Source: Phycisphaerae bacterium | Lineage (GTDB): Bacteria; Planctomycetota; Phycisphaerae; Phycisphaerales; UBA1924 | DNA length: 64,000 bases | Assembly (NCBI GenBank): GCA_030426605.1 | Contig: JAUHXM010000001.1 | Location: forward strand, 91,379-155,378 | Reading direction: 5' to 3' | Program-made: the position numbers and the translations under genes | Shown: positions 21,282 to 29,487 of the stretch, piece by piece | Layout of the letters: each line of letters starts with the position of its first letter | Position numbering within the stretch: position 1 is the first letter of the stretch | The notes under the pieces: model-generated | The model's database searches: none | Told to the model about the DNA's origin: nothing | The model's input: the letters and a program-made list of their open reading frames with translations, nothing else

Positions 21282-21581
21282 TCAGTCGTCGAGCGGGCGG
21301 ACGGTCTTCGGGCCTTCCTTGCCCGCGACGCGGCTGAGCCCGCCGTCCGTGTTCTTCTCGTACTTCGTGAACCCGAGGCGCTCCAGGTTCGAGTTCGAGA
21401 GCTGCCCCTTGGACTTGATGTCCGACCACTTGCCCGCGATGTTGGGCGCCTGGGGGACGCGGTGCACCTTGCGCCCCTCGTGCTCGGTCAGCGCGTCCGC
21501 GGTGATGGGCTGGACGAGCTCGAAGCTCTCGCCCGTGCCCTCGCCCTGGTCGTCGAGATATTCGTACACGTACGTCGGCAT
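21282..21581 (-). CDS. FmdB-like small protein lacking the zinc-ribbon cysteines
   Basis: MPTYVYEYLDDQGEGTGESFELVQPITADALTEHEGRKVHRV resembles FmdB MPTYEYRC..CG..FE..Q.I.D.PLT.C. Confidence 0.5.
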   Translation of the reverse strand: MPTYVYEYLDDQGEGTGESFELVQPITADALTEHEGRKVHRVPQAPNIAGKWSDIKSKGQLSNSNLERLGFTKYEKNTDGGLSRVAGKEGPKTVRPLDD

Positions 21582-21690: not shown

Positions 21691-22023
21691 TCACCCGAAA
21701 ATCTGGCCCGATTCGGTGTCCTGCATCTTCCACCCGAGCGTCTTGCACAGGCGGCTCAGGACGGGCCAGGCGGATTCCGCCTCGTACACCGACACCATCG
21801 CCTGGTTCACCATGTCCTGTCCCGAGGCGTACTCGACGGTGTACCCCGGCCCGTGCAGCACCGCCGTGCCCAGGCGGCTTGTGACCGACCCGTCCGGCGC
21901 GGTGTTGAACAGCGCCACCGCCTCGGCGAACTCCTTGGGCGTGCCCAGCGGGTGATTCCCCGCCAGCGGGTCGTCCGGGTCCTTGGGTTTGATGAGCACC
22001 AGCAGGCGCTTGGACTTCGCCAT
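21691..22023 (-). CDS. Hypothetical protein
   Basis: MAKSKRLLVLIKPKDPDDPLAG...; coding consistent with genomic codon bias. Confidence 0.5.
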   Translation of the reverse strand: MAKSKRLLVLIKPKDPDDPLAGNHPLGTPKEFAEAVALFNTAPDGSVTSRLGTAVLHGPGYTVEYASGQDMVNQAMVSVYEAESAWPVLSRLCKTLGWKMQDTESGQIFG

Positions 22024-22057: not shown

Positions 22058-22489
22058 TCAGTCGTCGCCCACCGCGTCCAGCTCGGCGTCCTCCCGCTCG
22101 ATCAGCTCGACGGCCGTGTCCAGCAACCGTCCCAGCGGCACGGGCTTGAGCAGGTACGCGTCCACGCCCAGCGAATCGGCGTACGCCTGATGACGCTTGC
22201 CCTCGTTGGCCGTGATCATGATCACCAGCGGCGAGTCCTCGCGCCCCTTGATCTTCTCGAGCGCCAGGAACCCCGAACGCTTGGGCAGCATCATGTCCAG
22301 GATGACCAGGTCGGGCGGGTCGTCGTGGCAGATCTGCACCGCCGTGTCGCCGTCCATCGCCGTGAGGGTCAGCGCCCCCTCGGACTGGAACGCCGCGTCC
22401 ACGGATTCGAGGACGTCGCGTTCGTCGTCCACGATCAGAACGCGGACCTCCTCGAGTCTGCCGAGTTTCTCTTCGATGTTGTCGCTCAT
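22058..22489 (-). CDS. Response regulator receiver (CheY-like)
   Basis: VRVLIVDDERDVLESV...DLVILDMMLPKRSGFLALEKIK...VIMITAN. Confidence 0.92.
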   Translation of the reverse strand: MSDNIEEKLGRLEEVRVLIVDDERDVLESVDAAFQSEGALTLTAMDGDTAVQICHDDPPDLVILDMMLPKRSGFLALEKIKGREDSPLVIMITANEGKRHQAYADSLGVDAYLLKPVPLGRLLDTAVELIEREDAELDAVGDD

Positions 22490-22577: not shown

Positions 22578-23756
22578 TCACAGCAGGCGCGTCGCGCCGT
22601 TCTCCTTCAGCCACGCACGGTCCTGGTCGGACCGATCGACGATCGCGTCAACCTCGGCCTCGGACATCCAGGGCAGCTGGAGCAACTTCTCGCGCAGCGC
22701 CGGCGGGAAGGGCGTGTCCAGCCGCTCGTGCTTCGGGCGGCTCTTCCAGATTCGGTGCATCCAGAGGTACTGTTCCGGGCTCGACCGGACCATCTGCTCG
22801 ATCCCGCGCCGGTACCGGGCCGTGAGGTAAAACAGGGGGTCCGGCTGGGCGTCCCAGTCTTCCGGGCGAATCACGTCCACCACCTCGAGCCGGTGGTGCA
22901 GCGTCCGCGCCGAGCCCGGAACAGGCGGCAGCCGCCGCGCCTGCCCCACGATCACGGGGCACCGGTACTTGAGCCCCAGCAGCCCGATCGTCTTGTACGT
23001 GGACGCCAGCCGGTTGAAGAAAGGCACAAAGACGCCGCGCTCCCCCGCGTTCTGGTCCGCCACGAACCCGACGGACGCGCCACGGTCCATCACGTGCGGC
23101 AGCTCCTGGATCGCCCCGAACTTGTCCATCAGCATCAGCCCGCGACGCTCGCGCGTCCGGCGTACGAACCGGTCCATGGGCTGCACGTCCAGCGGGCGGT
23201 ACAGCGCGTACATCGGGAAGCCCAGCAGCGCCAGCGCGTACCCCACGATCTCCCAGTTGCCGCAGTGCCCCGTGATCAGGATCACCGGGCCCTCGCGCGT
23301 GAGCTCGGTGATCACCGTCCCGATGTCGCCCAGCTCGATGTAATCGACCCAGGCGTCCTCGTTCAGGAGTCTCGGCGCGAGCGCGAACTCGACCGCGAGC
23401 TCGGCGAGGTGCTCGTAGCTCGCGAGCACCAGGTCTCGGCGCGCGGGGGCGTCCATGTCCGGGAACGCCACCGAGAGCCGGTCCGCCGCGCGGGAGACGC
23501 GCTTCTTGTTGAACGGCATCGACCCGAACGTGCGCCCGATCGAGCGCGCGACCGCGGCGCTGGGCCCAAGCCCGGCAACGTGGATCGGCGCCATCCCCGC
23601 GCGGATCGTCTGGTAGATCAGCGGGTGGACGAGCGCGGACTGCAGCCGTGTCGGCGGGTTGCGGGGGTCGTACCTCGATCGTTCGACGGCGCCGGTGCCC
23701 AATGCCGTGTCCCCCAAACAGAACCGGGGCGAAGACGCCCCGGCTCGCGTGGTCAT
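22578..23756 (-). CDS. Lysophospholipid/lauroyl acyltransferase family protein (LpxL-like)
   Basis: ELTREGPVILITGHCGNWEIVGYALAL, GVFVPFFNRLAST, typical HtrB/LpxL layout. Confidence 0.85.
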   Translation of the reverse strand: MTTRAGASSPRFCLGDTALGTGAVERSRYDPRNPPTRLQSALVHPLIYQTIRAGMAPIHVAGLGPSAAVARSIGRTFGSMPFNKKRVSRAADRLSVAFPDMDAPARRDLVLASYEHLAELAVEFALAPRLLNEDAWVDYIELGDIGTVITELTREGPVILITGHCGNWEIVGYALALLGFPMYALYRPLDVQPMDRFVRRTRERRGLMLMDKFGAIQELPHVMDRGASVGFVADQNAGERGVFVPFFNRLASTYKTIGLLGLKYRCPVIVGQARRLPPVPGSARTLHHRLEVVDVIRPEDWDAQPDPLFYLTARYRRGIEQMVRSSPEQYLWMHRIWKSRPKHERLDTPFPPALREKLLQLPWMSEAEVDAIVDRSDQDRAWLKENGATRLL

Positions 23757-23796: not shown

Positions 23797-25173
23797 TCAG
23801 TCCGGGTAATCGCCGATGAGCGTGCGCAGGCGGTTCTCGTTCAAGACGGGGACCGCCGTCGCCTGGGCCGTCGCGAGCAGCTCGTCGTACGCCTCAATCT
23901 TGTTGCGCAGCTCGGTGAACGCGAGCACCACCTCGAGCGGCGCGTCGGGGTCCGGCTCGGGCGGGAGCTCGGGACGCTCGCCCAGCACCAGGAAGTCGAT
24001 GTTGCCCTCGATCGAGTCCACGACCTCGCCGCCCCAGCGGACGATGAGCGCCTCGACGTCGTCGCGCTCGTGCGCCGTGGCGAGCCCGTCGTTGTTCCGG
24101 TCGAACAGCCCGTAGACGACCATCTTGTACGTCTTGTTGGGGTCGTAGACGGCGTTGGCGACGACGTCGCCGCGGACGATCGGGTTGCCGCGCGACTCGG
24201 AGATGATCCGGGCCCGCGAGAAGTTGCCCTCGACGCGGGTGACCTCAACGACCGCCTTGGGCAGGTCGTAGATGCCGGTGGCCGGGTCGGGGCGGATCTC
24301 GGTGGCGTCGGAGAAGACGCCGAACGTCATCCCGAGGACGACCTTCTGACGGCGGCCGATCGAGAGGATCACCTCGTTGTTCGGCGCGTCCACGCGGTCG
24401 ATGTTGCCATCGACGAGCGACGCCTCGTCGAGCGGGCGGATCGCGTTCGGGTCGCCGTCGGCACGCAGACGCCGGAGCTGGTCCTGCAGCACCAGGTTCT
24501 CGCGGCGGGTGGACTCGAGCTGGCCCTCGAGCTGGTCCTCACGCTGCTCGGCCTGATCGAGGATGTTGTTGATCTCGCCGCGGTACTTGTCCTCGAGCGC
24601 CTGGATCGCCTGCTCCATGCTGGCGAACTGGAGCCCATAGTCGCGGACCTGACCGCCGAGCACCTGGCCCGCGGCGTCGTACTCGCTGCTGAGCTCGTTG
24701 ACCCGCATCGCCAGCGCCTCGCGCTCCTCATTGGCGGCGTCGAAGTCTGCCTGCGCCTGGGCGAGCTGGGCTACGAGCGACGCGATCTCGCGCTCACGCG
24801 TCGCGATGATCTCGATCATCGGGTTCGCGTCCGAGCCTTCGACGGTCGCCAGGCGGTTGCGGAGGTCCGCCGTCGTCGCGGTAGGCGAGCCGATCGCCAT
24901 GTCCATCGTGTCGCGGACCTCGCGGACGAGGTAGCTCACGACGGACTCGCGGTTCGCGCGGGCGCGGTCGGCGATCGCCTGCACCGACTCGAGGTTGCGC
25001 TCGGCGGTTGTGATGTAGTCCCGGGCCGCCTCGGCGGCTTCTTCCGCCTGCCGGCGCTCCGAGTTCGCCCTGCCGTAGAACACCATCGTCAGCACGAACA
25101 ACGCGAGGCAGAGCATGCCCAGCAGGGTGATCGTGACGGCGACGCCGACGCTCGCTCCGGTTCGTGCGGCCAT
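23797..25173 (-). CDS. Membrane-anchored coiled-coil protein with BRCT-like C-terminal domain
   Basis: TM MAARTGASVGVAVTITLLGMLCLALFVLTMVFYG; long coiled coil; C-term YKMVVYGLFDRNNDG...VEALIVRWGGEVVDSIEGNIDFLVLGE...VPVLNENRLRTLIG. Confidence 0.7.
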   Translation of the reverse strand: MAARTGASVGVAVTITLLGMLCLALFVLTMVFYGRANSERRQAEEAAEAARDYITTAERNLESVQAIADRARANRESVVSYLVREVRDTMDMAIGSPTATTADLRNRLATVEGSDANPMIEIIATREREIASLVAQLAQAQADFDAANEEREALAMRVNELSSEYDAAGQVLGGQVRDYGLQFASMEQAIQALEDKYRGEINNILDQAEQREDQLEGQLESTRRENLVLQDQLRRLRADGDPNAIRPLDEASLVDGNIDRVDAPNNEVILSIGRRQKVVLGMTFGVFSDATEIRPDPATGIYDLPKAVVEVTRVEGNFSRARIISESRGNPIVRGDVVANAVYDPNKTYKMVVYGLFDRNNDGLATAHERDDVEALIVRWGGEVVDSIEGNIDFLVLGERPELPPEPDPDAPLEVVLAFTELRNKIEAYDELLATAQATAVPVLNENRLRTLIGDYPD

Positions 25174-25414: not shown

Positions 25415-28138
25415 TCACTGCCCGATCACGTACGCCGCGTCGAGCGTCCGGGCGATCCGCGTGCGGACGTCGTCCAGGTGGGCCTTGGTGTAGGTGCCCG
25501 GGTTCGAGCCCAGGGCCTCCTCGGCCATGCCATCGACCCGGCGGAGTTCCGCTGCCGCGAGCGTCGCGATCGTCCGGAGCGTCGGGCTCGAGCTGTCGAG
25601 CAGGGCGAGGGTGGTGAGGCGTGAGAGGTGCTCGCGCTGCAGCCCGCGCTGGAAGCTCGAGATCTCGTCGCCTCGCGAGACGTCGCCCAGGTCCGACCAC
25701 GCCGCGTCCGTGACGGTCGTGACGAGCTCGGCCATGGTGAACGGGTTCTCGTCCTGGGCCTTGTACTCGTTGTCGTAGACGCGGCGGAGGCGGGTGGGGT
25801 TCATGACGAGCGACATCGCCGCCGCCTGGATGCTGCCCACCATGTCGTGCACGGGGACGTTCGGGTCGGACATCAGCTCGTTGATGCCCGCCGGGTCCCA
25901 CCAGTGCTCCTTGCCCATGTGGGCGAGCAGCTCTGGGGTGAGCCCGAAGGCGTCGTCGTCGAAGCTGCTCTCGAGGATGAGGGCGAGGGCCTCGCGCTGG
26001 CGGTCCGCCGGGACCTCCTCGACCGGGACGCGCTCGCCCGGGTCGCCCTTGAAGTCGTTGTTGTAGAAGGACCCGCCGATCCACCCCGACGCGATGACCA
26101 TCGCCTGGAAGTGGGTGTTGAGCAGCGAGTTGAACCGGCGCCGCGTCTCGGCCCAGCTCTCACCCTCCTTCACGATGTCCTCGACGAGGCGCGAGCGGAG
26201 GTCGGCCACGATGCCCAGGCGCGAGCGGGCGAACTGCAGGTTGTCCGCGCCCATGTCCCACGTCACGTTGCGCGGGTCGGACCCGGCCGACATCGCCTGC
26301 TGGGGCACCCAGATGTGCCCCGGCTCGGAGACGCGCTTGAGCGTCTCCTCGACCTTGTCTTCGGGGCCGTACCCGAACGCGATCGCCCACAGGTCGTACG
26401 GCCCGACCTCGGTCGTCGCGTACGGGCCCTGCGCCTCGCCGAGCTCGTGGTTGAGGTTGACCGCCGCGTACTCCATGACCGACCCGATCATCGGACCCGA
26501 GAAATCGGGCGAGTTGATCTCCTCGAGGGTGTTGATCGTCGAGGACGTCATGTTGTGCTGCAGGCCCAGGCAGTGCCCGACCTCGTGCGCGCTGATGTAC
26601 CGGATGATCTGCGAGTAGAAAACCTCGGGGATGCCGTCGAGCAGGTTGTCGGGGTCGGCACCCGTGGGGAGATCGAGCAGCCCGGTCTGCAGCGCGGTGC
26701 CCGCGAGGGCGAAATCGACGGCGAGCATGTTGCCCATCTTGCACGCCGCGTTCACGTGGCTCGTGCCCGGCGTCCAGGGATGATCGGGCGAGCCGAACTC
26801 GACCTCGGTCGCTTTCTCCATGCGTTGCGAGCGCATCGCCATGCGGTGCGCGCGCCGCTCGGGCGAGGCGAGCCGGATCCGCGGGTCCCAGTCCGGGTGC
26901 TCCTCGAAGAACGCGAGCGTCTCGGGCCCGAACGCCTGCTCGGTGAAGTCGTCGGACAGGATCTCCAGGCTTGCGCGCAGCGAGCGCGTCAGCCCCTGGT
27001 GCCACACCACGTCGGCGTCGAGGATCTCGCCCGTCAGCGGGTTCGTGCGGCTCGGGCCGATCGCGTAGCCCTGGTTCGAGGCGTTCCAGCGGAAGAAGTT
27101 GTACCGCGCGTCCTCGGGGTCCTTGTCCATGTGGGCGCCGGTGACCGAGTCCTGCTGGTAGACCTCGAGGGCACCCACAATCCCGATCTCCTCGAACGCC
27201 TTGTTCCACATCTCGATCCCCTCGCGCACGTACCGGCGGTACTTCACAGGGGTCGTGTGCTCGATGTACCAGACCAGCGGCTCCTTGGGCGGGCTCATCT
27301 GCAGCTTCGGGTCCGCCTTCTCGATGTTCCAGCGGCTGATGTACCGGTCCGTGACCTTCGCGTTCGCGTCACGCGAGAAGTCCTGGTGCCAGTTGTAGAA
27401 GTACCCGACGCGCGGGTCCGCGTGGCGCGGCTTGTACCCGGGCGTGCCCTCGAGGTTCCCGATCGAGTACGACAGCCGCACGATCTGGCCCGAGCCGGGA
27501 CGCGGCGCCTGGTACTCGAACACGATGTTGTCCGGGAAGGCCTTCGCCTTCGTCAGCTTCGCCAGGCGCGCGTCGATCGGCCCGCCCGACGACCCGTACC
27601 CGCCCCAGGGCGAGCCCGGGAAGAACGTCGCCGCCTGCTGCGTCGCGATGCCGCCCAGGTCGATCACCGGGCGACCGTCCTTCGTCTCCGACACGATGGG
27701 CGTCGAGAGCAGCACGCGGCCCGTGTAGAGCTGCTCGTTGGAGTCCTGGGCCTGCTTGTCGCCGTCGGTGCGGACCGACAGGTTCGGCGCGACAAGCATG
27801 AGCTGCTTGTCAACGCGCTCCCACTGGACGTAGTGCGTCGGGCCCATGACGCCCGCGTGCGCGTCGCCGCCCGAGACGGTGCAGGCGATCATGATCATCT
27901 TCTTGTCGTACCCGCGCGGCAGGGCGGCCAGGAGCTTCCCGCTCTCGCGGTCCTCGTAGAGCTCCCAGAGCGGGTCGGACCCGTCGGCCGTCGAGACGAC
28001 CTTGCTCAGCCCCTCGGTGACCTTCTCGATCGGGGGGAAGTCCGGCTTGTCGTCGGCGTACACCGGGGTCACCCCGCCGGCGAGCGTCAACATCATCGCG
28101 ACGACGGCTGCGCCGCCCGCACGCTTCATACTCCGCAT
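25415..28138 (-). CDS. Secreted zinc-dependent metalloprotease (DUF5117/DUF4953-type)
   Basis: ISAHEVGHCLGLQHNM zinc motif, signal peptide MKRAGGAAVVAMMLTLAGGVTPVYA. Confidence 0.88.
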   Translation of the reverse strand: MRSMKRAGGAAVVAMMLTLAGGVTPVYADDKPDFPPIEKVTEGLSKVVSTADGSDPLWELYEDRESGKLLAALPRGYDKKMIMIACTVSGGDAHAGVMGPTHYVQWERVDKQLMLVAPNLSVRTDGDKQAQDSNEQLYTGRVLLSTPIVSETKDGRPVIDLGGIATQQAATFFPGSPWGGYGSSGGPIDARLAKLTKAKAFPDNIVFEYQAPRPGSGQIVRLSYSIGNLEGTPGYKPRHADPRVGYFYNWHQDFSRDANAKVTDRYISRWNIEKADPKLQMSPPKEPLVWYIEHTTPVKYRRYVREGIEMWNKAFEEIGIVGALEVYQQDSVTGAHMDKDPEDARYNFFRWNASNQGYAIGPSRTNPLTGEILDADVVWHQGLTRSLRASLEILSDDFTEQAFGPETLAFFEEHPDWDPRIRLASPERRAHRMAMRSQRMEKATEVEFGSPDHPWTPGTSHVNAACKMGNMLAVDFALAGTALQTGLLDLPTGADPDNLLDGIPEVFYSQIIRYISAHEVGHCLGLQHNMTSSTINTLEEINSPDFSGPMIGSVMEYAAVNLNHELGEAQGPYATTEVGPYDLWAIAFGYGPEDKVEETLKRVSEPGHIWVPQQAMSAGSDPRNVTWDMGADNLQFARSRLGIVADLRSRLVEDIVKEGESWAETRRRFNSLLNTHFQAMVIASGWIGGSFYNNDFKGDPGERVPVEEVPADRQREALALILESSFDDDAFGLTPELLAHMGKEHWWDPAGINELMSDPNVPVHDMVGSIQAAAMSLVMNPTRLRRVYDNEYKAQDENPFTMAELVTTVTDAAWSDLGDVSRGDEISSFQRGLQREHLSRLTTLALLDSSSPTLRTIATLAAAELRRVDGMAEEALGSNPGTYTKAHLDDVRTRIARTLDAAYVIGQ

Positions 28139-28472
28139 GGTCCATCTCCGTAATCGCGGGCCCGCGGCCCTGAGCGCTTCGTCGGCGGGCACAGCCCCTC
28201 TGGCACCGTGGGAGCCCCACGGCGCCGGCTCCGCCGCACGCGCGCCCGACATCGACGCCTACCAAGATCGAGCGTGAATGGTTGCGTGCGAGCGCTGTCC
28301 CGCGGGGCCCACCCCTTCGGTGCGGCACCCACGCCGACCCCGAATCACCCCCCAAGCCGGTCATGCCCGCTTCTGCGTGTTTGGTTTATATGCGGGCTCG
28401 CCACAACCCCCCTTAACGCTTTCTTTGCGCAGTGCTTATGCTTTGTTCGGAGTCACGCCGAATCGGGGTGCC

Positions 28473-29003
28473 ATGCTGCAGGAGATGACGGACATCGAAC
28501 CCGACACCGCGCTGGGCGTTGCGACGATCGCGAGCCGCCTGGGGCTCGCGGTGCTCTTCGGCGCGGTCGTCGGGTTCGAGCGCAAGATCGCCGACAAGCC
28601 CGCGGACGTGCGCACGATGGTGATGATCAGCGCCGGCGCCGCGGCGTTTGCGCTCATGGGCGTCCAGATCACCGCTGGCGTGTCCGCGAACACGGGCATC
28701 CAGGCGGACCCGACGCGCGTGCTCGCGTACATCATCTCGGGCGTGGGTTTCCTGGGCGCGGGCGCGATCCTGCACTCGAAGAAAACGATCCGTGGGATGA
28801 CGACCGCCGCGGCGATCTGGGCGGCCGCGGCGATCGGCGCGGCGTGCGGGCTTGGGCTCCTCACGATCGCGACGTCGCTGTTCGTCGTTGTCTTCGCGAT
28901 GCTCTGGTTGCCCTGGACGGCGCGTTTCGTCGGGCTCGACAACGGCGACGACGATTCGGACGAGCTCGACGCCGAATCCACGCGCTGGCGTGCCGGCGGG
29001 TAG
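28473..29003 (+). CDS. MgtC/SapB family membrane protein (paralog 1)
   Basis: LAVLFGAVVGFERKIADKPADVRTMVMISAGAAAF, SGVGFLGAGAILHSKKTIRGMTTAAAIW. Confidence 0.88.
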   Translation: MLQEMTDIEPDTALGVATIASRLGLAVLFGAVVGFERKIADKPADVRTMVMISAGAAAFALMGVQITAGVSANTGIQADPTRVLAYIISGVGFLGAGAILHSKKTIRGMTTAAAIWAAAAIGAACGLGLLTIATSLFVVVFAMLWLPWTARFVGLDNGDDDSDELDAESTRWRAGG

Positions 29004-29019
29004 GCTGAGGCGCGCCGTG

Positions 29020-29487
29020 ATGATCGAGCCGCTGACCGAATTTGAGATCTTCGTCCGCGCCGCCGTCGCCGCCGCCCTCGGGCTCGCGATCGGGTGGGAC
29101 CGCGAAAAGAAAGAGAAGGCCGCGGGCGTGCGCACGATGGCGCTCGTGTCGCTCGGGTGCGCGGGGTTGGTGATCGCCGGGTTCGAGATCACCGCCCGGT
29201 TCGCGCATACCGACGCGACACTCGACCTCCTGCGGCTCGTCTCAGGGGTCGCGGGCGGCGTCGGCTTCCTCGGCGCCGGGGCGATCATCCAGTCGCGCGG
29301 CGAGATCCGCGGCATGACGACCGCGGCGTCCATCTGGGCCGCCGCCGGCATCGGCGTTGCGTGCGGCGCGGGCCTGTTCACGCTCGCCGGGATCCTGTGC
29401 GGGCTCGTGCTGGCGGTGCTCGTGGTCGTGACCATGTTCAAGGGCAGCGTCCTGCCCGACCGCGAGGACGCCAAGAGCGAGGGCTGA
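29020..29487 (+). CDS. MgtC/SapB family membrane protein (paralog 2)
   Basis: LGLAIGWDREKKEKAAGVRTMALVSLGCAGLV, AGGVGFLGAGAIIQSRGEIRGMTTAASIW. Confidence 0.88.
   Translation: MIEPLTEFEIFVRAAVAAALGLAIGWDREKKEKAAGVRTMALVSLGCAGLVIAGFEITARFAHTDATLDLLRLVSGVAGGVGFLGAGAIIQSRGEIRGMTTAASIWAAAGIGVACGAGLFTLAGILCGLVLAVLVVVTMFKGSVLPDREDAKSEG

Follow-up and report, generated by a model that had tools for sequence, protein, structure and literature searches.

The window, by which we mean the whole 64,000-nucleotide stretch of Phycisphaerae DNA that was analysed, carries on its minus strand a gene for a protein of 458 amino acids, with further conserved genes downstream. The features relevant to this analysis are as follows, with positions being those of the window and residues those of the protein.

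23797..25173, minus strand: whole gene, 458 aa, encoding a transmembrane (TM) helix, a coiled coil, an SH3/FlgT_C-like domain and a BRCT domain
25072..25140, minus strand: TM helix, residues about 12-34, from the AlphaFold2 helix 9-51, family hydrophobicity and flank charges
24463..24819, minus strand: coiled coil, residues 119-237, from AlphaFold2, lack of proline and hydrophobic periodicity
24154..24417, minus strand: SH3-like beta-barrel, FlgT_C-like, residues about 253-340, from Pfam and Foldseek
23800..24147, minus strand: BRCT domain, residues 343-458, from AlphaFold2, Foldseek, Pfam and a phylum profile
24067..24102, minus strand: EF-hand-like loop D-R-N-N-D-G-L-A-T-A-H-E (residues 358-369), an insertion that separates strand 1 of the BRCT from helix 1
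23938..23979, minus strand: insertion rich in proline, ERPELPPEPDPDAP, following BRCT strand 3 (residues 399-412)
22578..23756, minus strand: adjacent downstream gene, for an LpxL-like lipid A acyltransferase (Pfam PF03279, E 2e-34; HCGNWE motif)
22058..22489, minus strand: stand-alone response regulator receiver domain
21691..22023, minus strand: small conserved protein with no Pfam match
21282..21581, minus strand: second small conserved protein with no Pfam match

The open reading frame at 23797-25173 is real and coding: its ATG lies at 25173-25171, the product of 458 residues is followed by a stop codon, the methionine used here as M1 is common to 81/81 aligned Phycisphaerales relatives, and the protein of a sister genus is 78% identical across its full length. 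An upstream in-frame ATG, giving a form of 511 aa, was rejected, conservation favouring the M1 of the 458-aa form. Modelling of the full protein with AlphaFold2 and the 81-row family alignment gave a mean pLDDT of 84.5 and a layout consisting of a helix at residues 9-51, which holds the TM segment, short helices up to residue 109, a helix at 119-237, beta strands at 256-339 and finally an alpha/beta domain. Because long helices and coiled coils swamped the full-length searches with Foldseek and against PDB sequences, domain-wise runs were substituted for them.

The original prediction for this gene was an unusual combination of a single N-terminal TM segment, a coiled coil of about 200 residues, a small beta-rich domain and a BRCT domain, and the same combination was recovered here, with the TM segment falling within the first predicted helix. 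The coiled coil stands as well but its length does not, since the continuous helix covers only residues 119-237 and shorter helices precede it; this helix of 119 residues would be about 18 nm long if straight, and its region contains no proline among the 81 relatives and shows a hydrophobic repeat of 3.5-3.6. The small beta-rich domain proved to be an SH3-type barrel, matched by Pfam FlgT_C with E 0.0016 in the window protein and at E<=0.01 in 44/81 Phycisphaerales relatives (best 6e-7), and a Foldseek search with the full model placed the FlgT structures 3w1e and 8z5n among the best matches. At the same threshold only 3/80 distant relatives match, and because the similarity fades in this way "FlgT_C-like" is a description of fold and not of family membership. 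FlgT itself is a periplasmic component of the flagellar basal body, and basal-body entry titles were found among the Foldseek matches; in contrast with FlgT (PF16538; 3w1e), the protein described here yielded no further part of the FlgT domain set and no flagellar genes among its conserved neighbours, and its barrel is followed by a BRCT domain.

For the window protein taken alone the BRCT assignment is borderline: Pfam BRCT (PF00533) gave E 0.019 with the whole protein, below threshold, and E 0.0014 with the isolated domain (19.2 bits, below the cut-off of 21.3). It is nevertheless secure through the family, because family, structure and profile searches all lead to it. Pfam BRCT is matched by 61/81 isolated Phycisphaerales domains and by 36/80 distant relatives (best E 1e-14), many family members in planctomycete genomes exceed the cut-off with up to about 44 bits, and a phylum-wide profile finds the BRCT domains of LigA (1l7b, E 5e-13) and RFC1 (9e-10). 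AlphaFold2 modelling of the isolated C-terminal domain, the outcome of which could have contradicted the claim of a BRCT fold, instead predicted one with pLDDT 91.6 and pTM 0.81, with the elements in the BRCT order beta1-alpha1-beta2-beta3-alpha2-beta4-alpha3. The top Foldseek matches of this domain are likewise BRCTs, including those of DnlJ, RFC1, Dbf4, XRCC1 and TopBP1 (best E 3e-3, TM about 0.5). TIGR00575 (dnlj), a model for NAD-dependent DNA ligase, matches 20/80 relatives across the phylum with E down to 1e-17, presumably owing to the BRCT domain alone, and these matches are a likely source of misannotation, through which family members might be misread as pieces of ligase. At one locus (L146:6141-7478, minus strand) two tandem BRCTs are visible by sequence in a protein whose gene adjoins a second copy with a single BRCT.

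The best match in both sequence and structure is the BRCT of LigA/DnlJ (PF00533; 1l7b, 9a6z), with which the family shares fold, element order, a glycine after strand 1, a GG pair ending helix 1 and a hydrophobic strand 3 that ends in glycine. Fold and sequence pattern are also shared with the BRCT of human RFC1 (2ebu, 2k6g), a domain that binds 5'-phosphorylated DNA, and the modelled RFC1 DNA complex 2k7f was among the Foldseek matches. Unlike in LigA and RFC1, however, the phosphate-binding signature, consisting of Thr/Ser-Gly after strand 1 and a lysine in helix 2, is not conserved: threonine or serine occupies the LigA pocket threonine position in only 8/80 relatives, position 354 is Tyr, Phe or Asp in 73/81 Phycisphaerales, and at the pocket lysine position lysine falls outside the ten commonest residues, many replacements being found. 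The domain is also acidic, with a net charge of -4.9 to -6.5 per 100 aa (and acidic in 78/80 distant relatives), whereas the LigA BRCT is near neutral at +0.9; unlike that of LigA, it also sits behind a coiled coil with a membrane anchor. Pocket loss and acidity together speak against binding of DNA ends or phosphopeptides through the usual pocket, and the family BRCT is thus probably not a canonical reader of DNA or phosphate, though it may bind in other ways.

The Phycisphaerales proteins further differ from the LigA/DnlJ BRCT in having two insertions. In the proline-rich insertion P401 and P407 are invariant, and the loop follows a near-invariant pattern, D-x-[ND]-x-D-G-x-x-[TS]-x-x-E, with Asp at position 1 in 81/81 sequences, Asn/Asp at position 3 in 76/81, Asp at position 5 in 74/81, Gly in 77/81 and Glu at position 12 in 77/81. 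The loop is present in the class Phycisphaerae and in a second clade, and because proteins with and without it lie on either side of one branch of the family tree (support 98/95), it was gained or lost once; removal of the loop columns from the alignment still results in a single change. Its sequence has the D-x-[DN]-x-D-G core, the spacing of ligands and the Glu at position 12 that characterise the calcium-type Dx[DN]xDG loops, both EF-hand-like and dockerin-like, for which calcium binding is described in several settings other than the EF-hand, strand-loop-helix among them, and which are biased towards periplasmic, surface or secreted proteins (PMC3123361). That survey makes no mention of BRCT domains, and the difference here is that the loop is inserted within one. 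By this likeness the BRCT loop may well bind calcium.

The protein begins with a short tail, MAARTGASVGV, in which Arg4 is near-invariant, and its orientation in the membrane was approached through the charges flanking the TM segment. Across 84 relatives, of which nearly all lie outside the Phycisphaerales, the N-terminal tail has a net charge of +1.24 and the C-terminal flank of -0.62, a difference of +1.86, with N exceeding C in 73% and falling below it in 11%; in the Phycisphaerales rows alone the difference is only +0.25, a weak signal. Controls from the same phylum, scored identically, gave +0.56 for ExbD, -0.91 for RmuC and -0.38 for ATP synthase b, the last being noisy because a signal peptide was taken as the TM segment in some rows. 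ExbD is an N-in/C-out protein, while RmuC and ATP synthase b are N-out/C-in. We know of no extracytoplasmic BRCT domain, and the prior is therefore against a periplasmic one; even so, we regard an N-in/C-out orientation with a periplasmic head as fairly probable. Depletion of cysteine was also considered as a sign of an extracytoplasmic location, there being 0 Cys in the 81 Phycisphaerales BRCT domains, and was dropped since LigA BRCTs are just as Cys-poor (2 in 2081 residues).

It had been suggested that the protein might be a tether specific to this lineage, which the distribution of the family does not bear out. Almost all Phycisphaerales have the full-length protein, a copy is present in 59/61 genomes at order level or closer, the order-level profile matches 249/292 sampled Planctomycetota genomes, and a broader profile gave a clear match in 11/20 negative genomes that were re-tested with it. 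As some weak matches may be to the coiled coil only, the safe statement is that the family is present in most of the phylum Planctomycetota. The 80 matches retained from the genome scan are nearly all labelled Phycisphaerales, Phycisphaerae or Planctomycetota, with a few generic or oddly named bins, among them one labelled "Cyanobacteria". One taxonomic family (f46), represented by near-complete genomes, seemingly lacks the protein, and its weak matches, considered as possible remote members, were rejected as LigA and MurC. Some lineages have two adjacent copies, and such paired paralogues recur in several lineages. The protein is covered by no curated family model, and among the papers listed by literature searches, none was relevant to planctomycete or periplasmic BRCT proteins by its title and abstract.

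Within the Phycisphaerales the lpxL-like gene is linked to the BRCT gene in 68/81 loci, with 33 bp as the median gap, followed in frequency by the gene of the response regulator receiver domain (53/81) and those of the two small conserved proteins (49/81 for 21691..22023 and 29/81 for 21282..21581). In 76 loci from outside the order tatC lies on the same strand in 36, being directly downstream in 30, with cinA (18) and ychF (12) lying beyond it. The most widespread neighbours there are all divergent upstream genes, namely rho (41), coaE (33) and polA (15). The closest partners on the same strand suggest a link with envelope biogenesis, while the divergent housekeeping genes are the main argument for a rival, DNA-related reading.

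On balance we lean towards a bitopic inner-membrane tether, in which the N-terminus would stay in the cytoplasm, one TM helix would span the inner membrane, and a long coiled coil, probably oligomeric, would cross the periplasm, the tip of this rod carrying the SH3-like and BRCT domains as a docking head for proteins rather than DNA, in the service of envelope assembly. Where it is present, in Phycisphaerae and a second clade, the Ca2+-binding-type loop would probably stabilise the BRCT domain outside the cytoplasm. Periplasmic scaffolds of the MreC type are built similarly, from a short N-terminal tail, one TM segment, a coiled coil and a beta-barrel head; this likeness concerns the general build only and does not imply homology, the family protein differing in its BRCT head, and Pfam and NCBIfam yielding no match to MreC for the window protein. 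We give about an even chance to the broader proposition that a phylum-wide family has moved its BRCT domain out of the cytoplasm, where it forms a periplasmic, Ca2+-stabilised head on a rod and takes part in building the planctomycete envelope.

Two roles had been suggested for the protein at the outset, one in the cell envelope and the other as a tether between chromosome and membrane. The second would have the protein facing the cytoplasm, its BRCT head binding repair proteins, such as LigA and PolA, or the ends of DNA at the membrane; we rank it second and regard it as rather unlikely. BRCT domains are the usual markers of DNA repair and replication and are otherwise found as modules of the cytoplasm or nucleus, the nearest relative of this one is that of LigA, as the TIGR00575 matches also reflect, polA is among the upstream neighbours, with recG or uvrA adjoining the gene in single loci, and N-out/C-in orientation does occur among some bitopic proteins. 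Yet polA, like rho and coaE, is divergent and not co-transcribed with the gene, and the cell-envelope role fits better because the pocket is lost, the domain is acidic, the flank charges of the wider family and the calcium-type loop in its non-EF-hand setting suggest an extracytoplasmic head, and the same-strand neighbours are those of the envelope.

Two other roles within the envelope seem improbable to us. The protein might be part of an envelope-spanning machine of pilus or flagellar type, its N-terminus serving as a TadE/G or pseudopilin segment and its SH3-like domain acting as in FlgT, a reading suggested by the similarity to FlgT_C, by R-G-A type N-termini in many relatives and by a sub-threshold match of residues 12-50 to Pfam Tad (TadE/G-like, PF13400; E 0.001, 19.8 bits against a cut-off of 22.3). 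However, no pilus or flagellar genes were found among the conserved neighbours, either in Phycisphaerales or in other loci, FlgT_C similarity is rare among the distant relatives, and SH3-like barrels are found in many unrelated proteins. Similarly low odds attach to a main role as a Phycisphaerales-specific regulator of lipid A or the envelope that acts jointly with two operon partners, the LpxL-like acyltransferase and the response regulator: the tight linkage of these genes within the order speaks for it, but as the gene adjoins tatC, cinA and ychF instead outside the order, a role with LpxL only cannot have been ancestral.

If the periplasmic docking rod that we favour is real, it would widen the known uses of the BRCT domain to a membrane rod that is probably extracytoplasmic, and would offer, for a phylum with poorly explained cell biology, a conserved candidate for organising the envelope.

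Several other genes of the window may be mentioned. The small protein at 21282-21581 (minus strand) has an FmdB-like look without the cysteines. Just upstream of the BRCT gene and on the same strand, 25415-28252 (minus) encodes a large protein of zinc metalloprotease type (Pfam DUF4953 met-zincin and DUF5117), found near the BRCT gene in only 6/81 loci. Beyond it lie two adjacent genes for similar MgtC-like membrane proteins, 28278-29003 (plus) and 28852-29487 (plus), the Pfam MgtC test referring to the first, and 23 loci have homologues of the second on the upstream side of the BRCT gene.
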